From Halorubrum alkaliphilum (GTDB taxonomy: Archaea > Halobacteriota > Halobacteria > Halobacteriales > Haloferacaceae), in assembly GCF_017873815.1 (NCBI RefSeq), contig NZ_JAGGKQ010000001.1, positions 62,001 to 126,000 on the forward strand: a DNA stretch of 64,000 nucleotides. Reading direction: 5' to 3'. The first letter of the stretch is position 1; each line of letters starts with the position of its first letter. The notes under the pieces were generated by a model. The model saw only the letters and a list, made by a program, of their open reading frames with translations. It made no database searches and had not been told where the DNA came from. Below are positions 530-23,244 of this stretch, one piece after another. The position numbers and the translations under genes were made by a program.

Positions 530-694
530 TCGGCCGACGCGTTCGAGTTCGATCCGACCGACTCCATCAAATATCACTTCGTTGCCATCGATCTGAGCGA
601 TTCACTCCCGCTATCGCTCACACGTCCTCCCGTACAGATACGGAGTGGAACGGAGTTCGTCACTCTCCGGCAGTGTCAACGGACCCACCGATCC

Positions 695-19374: not shown

Positions 19375-19486
19375 TCGGACGGGGTCGTCGAACTCGTTTC
19401 CAGTTGCTGTCTGTTCATCCGATGGCTTAGTATGGACGTAGTAGTGAGCGATATCGGGAGTAAGCCTCTCAAATCGGCAGCGACGT

Positions 19487-19551
19487 GATCGTATTTAAAC
19501 GGACTGTGAGCGACAGCAACGATCGCTTATAAACAAACCGTGCGGTGGCGT
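19487..19551 (+). repeat. Copy A of a 65-bp intergenic module
   Basis: By hand count, 45 of 65 positions match 23010-23074 without gaps. Conserved blocks are GATCGTA, ACGATC, TTATAAA and GCGGTGGCGT. Both copies lead directly into hairpin-rich, gene-free DNA. Confidence 0.65.
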
Positions 19552-19561
19552 GCGCCTCCGA

Positions 19562-19790
19562 GCGCCCTTTTAAGGGCGCGAGTAGGGAGAGACCGAAGGT
19601 CTCTCTGACAGCCGGCGGCAACGCCGCCGGCGAGAGCGTCGCGCGAGGGAGTCGCTGGCGGCGGCTGCCGCCAGCGACAGGGCGAGAGCGGAGCTCTCTC
19701 TAGCAATCGGCGGCAAAGCCGCCGGTGACGAGGCTGGGGAGGCGTGAGGTGCGGTTGCTGTGCCGGCTAGGGCTTTGGAGGTCGTCACCG
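19562..19790 (+). ncRNA. Candidate structured RNA or intergenic element with six hairpins
   Basis: Perfect stem-loops follow one another: 19562-19579 (8-bp stem), 19587-19605 (8 bp, GAA loop), 19611-19631 (8 bp), 19651-19678 (12 bp, GGCT loop), 19684-19698 (6 bp) and 19708-19724 (7 bp, AAA loop). CGGTGACGA (19723-19731) also pairs with TCGTCACCG (19782-19790), enclosing a G-rich segment. A TATA-like box (19526-19534) is about 28 bp before the first stem. Whether it is transcribed, or is a dispersed DNA repeat, cannot be decided here; I have an uncertain memory of similar GAGGCTGGGGAGGCG-containing elements in other haloarchaea. Confidence 0.5.
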
Positions 19791-20069
19791 TCGATCCGCG
19801 GTCAACCGCTTATAAACGAGTGGCTAGAGCTTTTCAGTAGTTCCTCATATCCTCGCCCATTTATAAACAGCCGCCAGCAACACCACTAATCCACTTATAA
19901 ATACCTACCACACCGTATTGCGAGACCTACTCTCGGTATCGCTCATGAACGAACCCCCGTCGACCAACGGTTTCTGGGAAGAACCATGTATATAAAAGCG
20001 ACCTCAACGGGGCCCAAACGCCGGGAACCCGTCTCCCGGACTACCCCTACGATCCCGATCCCGGCCGAT

Positions 20070-22934: not shown

Positions 22935-23009
22935 TCCGGGTTCGCCTCCGTCGATGGAGCTGCCGTTTGACCGATCTCGGGAGTGCGTCGCTCGAACCGA
23001 TACCGACGA

Positions 23010-23074
23010 GATCGTAAATAACGGACGTGAGAACGGCCGTCACGATCCATTATAAATGAACGAGGCGGTGGCGT
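23010..23074 (+). repeat. Copy B of the 65-bp intergenic module
   Basis: Diverged copy of 19487-19551, same length, 45 of 65 identical by hand count, with TTATAAA and GCGGTGGCGT in the same positions. It is followed by GC-rich inverted repeats, though fewer and shorter than behind copy A. Confidence 0.65.
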
Positions 23075-23244
23075 CACCGGCGACTCCGCCGCCGGCAATG
23101 ACGAGAGAGCGCCACTCACTCGTTTATAAACGCCTCCCTCTCAGTACACTCGATCTACCCCTGACATCGCTCACCGCCCCGTCCGGATCATGCGGGGGGA
23201 CGACCACCGGTTCCGCTACGGACCTCAACGGTGGCGTTTTTCCC

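Follow-up and report, generated by a model that had tools for sequence, protein, structure and literature searches.

The locus and its hairpin array

Within the window, by which we mean the whole 64-kb stretch of DNA analysed, a gap between a convergent response-regulator/PAS gene on one side and an aspartyl-tRNA-synthetase-type gene on the other contains six perfect, non-overlapping hairpins in 229 nt (19562-19790; stem of at least 6 bp, loop of 3-4 nt). All six stem-loops listed by the first-pass annotation were found, perfect, at the positions it gave. None of 2000 first-order Markov shuffles reached six (mean 0.26, maximum 3), no denser cluster of this type occurs across the window, and the folding energy of the region lies well under that of shuffled sequences on both strands (z -4.5 and -7.0). 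The TATA-like box described upstream of the hairpins is also present (CTTATAAAC, starting at 19526). An outer pair proposed between 19723-19731 and 19782-19790 does exist, but in the predicted fold it competes with a longer closing helix, P1, which joins 19542-19550 to 19783-19791 and 19554-19561 to 19775-19782 in the minimum-free-energy (MFE) structure and recurs in the RNAalifold consensus from full-length copies. The extent assigned to the feature, 19562-19790, was too narrow: terminal inverted repeats bound a 501-bp unit of which the array is the central part. The unit, its flanks and its relatives in the window are as follows.

19400-19444, plus strand: M1-type flank, relic of one end of an IS5-like shell (PWM score 11.3, shuffled maximum 4.8)
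19445-19945, plus strand: whole element, 501 bp, in family-consensus orientation, from its terminal inverted repeats and an alignment of dozens of own-genome copies
19445-19477, plus strand: left terminal inverted repeat, TGAGCGATATCGGGAGTAAGCCTCTCAAATCGG; 33-nt inverted pair, 79% complementary
19492-19500, plus strand: TATTTAAA box of the left block, conserved in the left-end alignment
19526-19534, plus strand: TTATAAAC/T box, about 15-20 nt before GCGGTGGCG, position conserved in copies of two species
19542-19561, plus strand: 5' side of closing helix P1, GCGGTGGCG ... GCCTCCGA, from the MFE fold
19562-19579, plus strand: hairpin 1, 7-bp stem, GCGCCCT-TTTA-AGGGCGC; position shared with other copies, which have different stem sequences there
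19587-19605, plus strand: hairpin 2, 8-bp stem, GAGAGACC-GAA-GGTCTCTC
19611-19631, plus strand: hairpin 3, 9-bp stem, GCCGGCGGC-AAC-GCCGCCGGC
19651-19678, plus strand: hairpin 4, 12-bp stem, GTCGCTGGCGGC-GGCT-GCCGCCAGCGAC
19684-19698, plus strand: hairpin 5, 6-bp stem, GAGAGC-GGA-GCTCTC
19708-19724, plus strand: hairpin 6, 7-bp stem, CGGCGGC-AAA-GCCGCCG
19729-19762, plus strand: G-rich block, CGAGGCTGGGGAGGCGTGAGGTGCGGTTGCTGTG, conserved in alignment A2 and other copies
19762-19791, plus strand: 3' remnant, GCCGGCTAGGGCTTTGGAGGTCGTCACCG, by comparison with full-length copies; the core helix GGGACTCAAAGGGGCAG...CTGGGG is missing here
19809-19817, no strand assigned: TTATAAA box 1 of the right block, from the right-end alignment
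19860-19869, no strand assigned: TTATAAA box 2 of the right block, from the same alignment
19894-19903, minus strand: TTATAAA box 3 of the right block, TATA-like and inward-facing, from the same alignment
19913-19945, minus strand: right terminal inverted repeat, TGAGCGATACCGAGAGTAGGTCTCGCAATACGG in the minus-strand reading, from the inverted pair and copy alignment
19946-19990, minus strand: M2-type flank, relic of the other shell end (PWM score 11.6, shuffled maximum 2.8)
22968-23173, plus strand: second family member, a short form of 206 bp (left HMM 59 bits, right HMM 27 bits)
568-620, minus strand: fragment of a third copy with one terminus (left HMM 31 bits)

Both termini of the element fit the consensus TGAnnGATnnCGGGAGTrrGT of 59 copies (terminus sequence TGAnnGATnnCGGGAGT). 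A full-length copy runs from its terminus through the TATTTAAA box, a TTATAAAT box and GCGGTGGCG into a variable array of perfect hairpins, and then through CGAGGCTGGGGAGGCGTGAGG, GGGYGGGAYTCAAAGGGGCAG, a long helix, CTGGGGCTTTGGAGGTnTTCACCG and two or three TTATAAA boxes to the other terminus. The window copy retains the closing helix and the 5' hairpin array and lacks the stretch from GGGACTCAAAGGGGCAG to CTGGGG, so that it has no core helix and is probably a derivative no longer making the complete RNA. Its box at 19526-19534 is a candidate archaeal TATA box of an internal RNA promoter, a function that is inferred. Hairpin 2 reads GAGGGACC-GAA-GGTCCCTC in other copies, a compensatory change relative to the window, and many copies have a counterpart of hairpin 4 before GAGGCTGGGG with quite different stem sequences. 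The short copy sits upstream of a larC-like gene, its hairpin centre mostly gone.

Dispersal, boundaries and insertion sites

Homologues, on whose existence the first-pass annotation had made its proposal depend, are plentiful. A search of the window's own genome with 19480-19900 returned 108 matching pieces in about 40 places, and matches occur in 34/34 other Halorubrum genomes examined, with up to about 70 terminus pairs in some of them. A loose terminus pattern matched the own genome 101 times, compared with 2 for the reversed control, and also recovered more divergent copies. The own-genome copy number of about 40-60 is an estimate, compiled stretch by stretch from a draft genome; other per-genome copy numbers are likewise estimates, motif counts excepted. 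Several contigs terminate within the element, as would be expected of a repeat. Listed full copies span 407-797 bp at about 60-100% identity, and the family as a whole about 200-800 bp.

Pairwise matches between copies all start near 19445 and end near 19945, coinciding with the 33-nt inverted repeat. Where the interiors of two copies agree at 93% or more, identity sinks to about 0.25 just past the terminus at either end (left, 17 pairs; right, 30 pairs; copies from the own genome and Halorubrum sp. CSM-61), and this drop exactly at the termini indicates that the unit is mobile. In the orthologous gap upstream of larC, Halorubrum sp. Atlit-26R has a full RNA cassette and H. distributum a form lacking the core helix; H. 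ezzemoulense and H. coriense have neither. The immediate aspS site of the window is not comparable in this way, since among the other loci retrieved neither the element nor the PAS-domain gene adjoins aspS. Taken with the inverted repeats, the dozens of dispersed intergenic copies and the near-identical cores in unrelated flanks, presence and absence of related elements at an orthologous site bears out the earlier suggestion of a mobile intergenic element. Gene conversion among resident copies, to judge from visible mosaics, could be a partial cause of the near-identical cores.

Predicted genes are avoided by 38/39 full own-genome copies. Gaps holding an element lie between convergent genes in 17 of 38 cases, compared with 26 of 144 other gene pairs, and this excess, together with the G+C-rich hairpins, might point to bidirectional transcription terminators or insulators between convergent genes. 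We consider that improbable: more than half of the copies are located elsewhere, the T-tract pattern is absent, and convergent gaps are also the safest places for insertion. Such a role would, moreover, leave the termini, the dispersal and the covarying core unexplained.

The outermost ten bases of the terminus (TGAnnGATnn) vary at fixed positions within near-identical units; in the inverted repeat, positions 1, 4, 5, 9, 10, 18 and 19 differ even among copies that are otherwise nearly identical. These positions look as though they were derived from the target or rewritten at each move. No target site duplication was detected, in that direct repeats showed no excess over permuted flanks at boundary offsets of 0-10 in 59 copies. 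Nor do the listed inward terminus pairs, spaced mostly 400-700 bp apart in the own genome and that of Halorubrum sp. CSM-61, enclose a transposase of their own. Copies of at least 1.2 kb, considered as possible autonomous partners, hold nested foreign IS elements, none of which is the element's own transposase. The relation of the termini to known transposons was checked only against the genomes searched. Phage and plasmid collections yielded no similar DNA, and those sets give no hint that a virus or plasmid serves as vehicle.

The nested insertions comprise an IS6-like element (L059:3410-4100), an IS1595-like element (L057:1990-3000), another IS (L043:3150-4990) and a short MITE-like insert with a duplicated CCAACGTAT (L042:2780-2950); the repeat is thus itself a landing site. 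At one end of a further copy (L115, G000:C13:47716-47827), about seven tandem 16-bp units of GATNGCGGGAGTGGCT are identical to the element's terminus core, which suggests that the terminus motif can expand like an iteron.

Outside the termini lie two conserved flank motifs, M1 (CGGTCAGTACAGACRCGG..G) and M2 (CTGAAACAACCGGTCGnTGAAGAGTGCTTTT). Where both flanks are recognised, 13/14 copies sit between one M1 and one M2 at a fixed offset, in either orientation (9 M1/M2, 4 M2/M1, 1 M1/M1). Both motifs run outward to GGCTCTGTTGAAATCC, the terminal inverted repeat of another element family (33 genome matches, 0 in the control), one member of which surrounds a broken transposase in which a DDE_Tnp_1 domain and a trace of DUF772 were recognised; these domains suggest an IS5-like source for the shell. 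As judged from the flanks, the element prefers one fixed position within relics of another transposon, and the window copy fits this pattern. In 14/52 copies the flanks are unrecognised as shell on both sides, so targeting is either a preference or obscured by the decay of old shells. The flanks of the near-identical cores L178, L185 and L186 have clearly diverged, and the cores lie in both orientations; this pattern speaks for insertion into old shells rather than for co-inheritance. A 133-position model of joined flanks found no directly joined, empty M1-M2 shell among 43 own-genome matches; all but one match were half-length, one extended to 97 positions, and shells without the element core contain other sequence instead. 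The second repeat family, with GGCTCTGTTGAAATCC termini (L188:2734-4341, L189:1398-1856, L101:4490-5080 and others), has differing cargos: a broken DDE transposase, a small possible HalOD1-like ORF, or the hairpin element.

The element can be compared with several known classes. MITEs share their termini and target duplication with a known transposon. Haloarchaeal MITEs resemble the element in being non-coding, dispersed and intergenic with terminal inverted repeats, and it meets their criteria of 33-bp repeats and of 200-800 bp without a transposase (present only as nested IS insertions); unlike them, it has no matching transposon that we could find in the genomes searched and no target duplication, and its interior is structured and conserved across genera. 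Assignment to the MITEs fails on the target site duplication. BOX of Streptococcus pneumoniae and bcr1 of Bacillus cereus are likewise intergenic repeats with a modular or structured make-up; they are presumed to move with the help of enzymes acting in trans, and their transcripts may fold. They are not known to be related to the element in sequence, and the element differs in a strongly covarying core found in most genera of a class.

Of the elements described so far, the nearest are the type A small mobile repeats (SMR-A) of Haloquadratum (PMC3119063). Like the element, SMR-A occur in dozens of copies, lack a transposase gene, leave the target unduplicated and insert preferentially at a fixed place in another mobile element; the terminal inverted repeats of both are unlinked to a known transposase, which for the element holds within the genomes searched. 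However, SMR-A of Haloquadratum walsbyi is about 110 bp, highly uniform (usually more than 95% identity within a type) and targets IS605-type/PATE palindromes (PMC3119063), whereas the element is about 200-800 bp and modular, has a covarying RNA-like core and targets IS5-like (DDE_Tnp_1) relics. It meets the SMR criteria on repeats, duplication and transposase and fails those on size with identity and on target; with an RNA-like cargo besides, we did not assign it to the SMRs. The SwitchRepeats and deletion-coupled insertions of Haloquadratum were drawn from strain comparisons (PMC3119063), whereas our inferences come from many loci.

Palindromes, high copy number and transposase-free repeats are also typical of Haloquadratum PATEs (PMC3119063), so that the element might descend from IS200/IS605-type (TnpB) transposons as a non-coding remnant, either a PATE or an omega RNA. 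This has been largely refuted. PATEs are defined by near-terminal palindromes as in IS605 and by the absence of the terminal inverted repeats present here; across 30 TnpB loci in six genomes neither a terminus nor an end block was matched, and core motifs fell within 1.5 kb of TnpB only twice, about as often as expected without linkage. Assignment to the PATEs fails on the inverted repeats and on any TnpB link.

The conserved core

Full-length copies carry a core, GGGYGGGAYTSAAAGGGGC-[long helix]-GGGGCTTTS', which covaries, as do the closing helix and the modular side hairpins. In a MAFFT alignment of 17 cores, RNAalifold predicts 72 pairs, 23 of them with two-sided changes. Among 22 long-helix sequences (alignment A3), 95.9% of cells are paired, compared with 85.4% after shuffling, and two-sided changes occur in 24/39 pairs against 10.8 in shuffles (0/500); sliding the helix reduces pairing to at most 46%. 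The shuffling control is uncorrected for relatedness, for which the slid control corrects. In 30 sequences from Halorubrum and other genera (A4) the covariation score is 0.507, against 0.132 shuffled, and slid helices are at most 49% paired. Position pair 50-103 of A4 is CG in 23 and GC in 6, and pair 53-100 is CG in 20 and UA in 8. One pair separates the genera: it is C..G in 49/51 Halorubrum cases and G..C in 38/38 from other genera, where the C of GGGACTC becomes G and the distant partner CTTTG becomes CTTTC, as A4 confirms. Selection for structure, as first proposed, is thereby supported at the level of the family, by helices that covary within Halorubrum and across genera, and the compensatory changes named as a check exceed both controls in A3 and A4. 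The candidate RNA fares less simply, supported for the family by covariation but not carried over to the window copy, which lacks the core motif. As a matter of sequence comparison, the RNA argument holds for the family and not for that copy.

Between the helices lies a conserved unpaired internal loop, GACGYAAG opposite CGCAGCGAG. G-U pairs exceed A-C combinations by 72 to 3 in A2 (mostly at few conserved positions) and by 28 to 13 in A3, with 5 to 6 in A4. The excess in A2 and A3, the one-strand loops and the TATA-like box would favour RNA over single-stranded DNA, although not decisively. Many copies have, in the region of hairpin 1, a stem that covaries except at tandem GA/GA mismatches (for example CGGTGAGCGGCCC...GGGCCGCGAACCG), which are a typical RNA motif. 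A second insert class within the same core stem, CCCCTATC...GATATGTCGSTGAGCGACC, replaces the GACGYAAG/CGCAGCGAG loop at type 2 loci (L214, L219, L220, L225, L229 and others).

Upstream of the motif, GGG stands at -4..-2 in 88/94 copies (54/54 in Halorubrum, 34/40 elsewhere) and neighbouring bases vary. The core thus has four conserved G-tracts, GGGY-GGG-AYTSAAA-GGGG-C[helix]-GGGG, and we hypothesize that they may form a quadruplex joint between helices, a fold in K+ that is inferred. The haloarchaeal cytoplasm contains molar K+, and a quadruplex is plausible there.

The exact core 15-mer GGGAYTSAAAGGGGC occurs in 256/391 haloarchaeal genomes and 62/86 genera (the reversed control gave isolated matches) and in 0/124 non-haloarchaeal genomes sampled from the phylum; with one mismatch allowed, a 17-mer form has 7 to 189 matches in each of 32/32 Halorubrum genomes. 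At gathering score, Rfam 15 matched only RNase P and tRNA, in the flanks, across the window and 20 element loci, and a permissive search gave chance-level matches only. A literature search restricted to open-licence papers found no description of the element or core. A possible resemblance of GTGGGACTGAAA to haloarchaeal CRISPR repeats was rejected, the Halorubrum form altering that base and its pairing partner changing with it. In other genera two core motifs often stand in divergent orientation about 45 bp from each other (L206, L207, L224, L241 and others), flanked on both sides by GGGGCTTTCTGGCTGTT-like ends, and such a pair is possibly a two-RNA mobile unit.

This breadth, often at modest copy number, would also suit a regulatory or housekeeping RNA of the host that multiplied in Halorubrum and was only later enclosed by inverted repeats, its mobility secondary. 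Apparently one locus is shared by three related species, and some Halorubrum cassettes have no terminal inverted repeats (L150). Exact motifs, however, number from 0 to 157 per genome, with none in two Halorubrum genomes, no fixed gene neighbour was seen, and near-identical copies occupy unrelated flanks. A host origin therefore remains possible, yet tentative.

Hairpin growth and a model for the family

The hairpins may have their own history. Among three related non-Halorubrum species that appear to share one orthologous locus, the long helix of one has acquired hairpin blocks of about 60 and 48 nt, and 7/15 recurrent stems bear their loop in both orientations (for example GGA and TCC). Block gain and loop flips fit DNA-level palindrome dynamics of side hairpins, which would explain the perfect row in the window, and an assembly from palindromic units, as the first-pass annotation had supposed, gains support. 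The same two observations, with the perfect Watson-Crick stems, the mosaic copies and the lack of transcript evidence for the family, could be taken further, to a MITE or small mobile repeat that acts purely as DNA, its palindromes kept perfect by template switching and gene conversion and perhaps serving a recombinase as cruciforms, with no functional RNA. That is unlikely in our estimation, as unpaired one-strand sequence is conserved across genera (the GACGYAAG/CGCAGCGAG loop and GGGAYTSAAAGGGG), conserved mismatches interrupt helices in a way that cruciform palindromes do not, G-U pairs are in excess on the motif strand in A2, and a TATA-like box is conserved ahead of the 5' end of the fold.

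We propose that the window feature represents one copy of a mobile element of Halorubrum that is non-autonomous, lacks a transposase and carries a structured-RNA gene as cargo, a reading to which we give a probability of roughly two in three and in which transcription is inferred. In our model, a recombinase supplied in trans would act on the TGAnnGATnnCGGGAGT termini and move the unit into IS5-like relics; no mobilising enzyme has been identified. Transcription would begin about 25 nt past the internal TTATAAA box, and the internal promoter would yield an RNA closed by a CGGTG/CACCG helix, in which the four G-tracts may form a quadruplex-like joint between two helices. Side hairpins would be gained, lost and flipped as DNA palindromes through template switching or gene conversion, which would keep the stems perfect. 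The conserved core would then be the probable functional part, and the side hairpins tolerated growth. Most likely the RNA would aid the spread or maintenance of the element, for example by binding a mobilising protein. We give an RNA that serves the element the most weight, and regard a host RNA turned mobile as the main alternative.

In a broader context, the gap between two genes probably leads to a new family of mobile RNA genes. Whether this is a class-wide, previously undescribed family of haloarchaeal structured RNA, spreading in the form of a mobile gene and enlarged by the capture of hairpin modules, and defined by the GGGYGGGAYTSAAAGGGGC-[helix]-GGGGCTTTS' core, the GACGYAAG/CGCAGCGAG loop and a possible quadruplex joint, is in our judgement evenly balanced. 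To our knowledge, very few structured RNA families are known in haloarchaea. If our reading is correct, a structured RNA would have gone unrecognised in most haloarchaeal genomes, where its copies can number more than 150. The movement of transposase-free mobile repeats was termed enigmatic in 2011 (PMC3119063), and such repeats would now be tied to a defined RNA and defined termini, both testable. Because the cells contain molar K+, the conserved G-tracts would be a natural setting in which to test quadruplex folding, and the hairpin modules naturally document the origin, flipping and spread of perfect palindromes.
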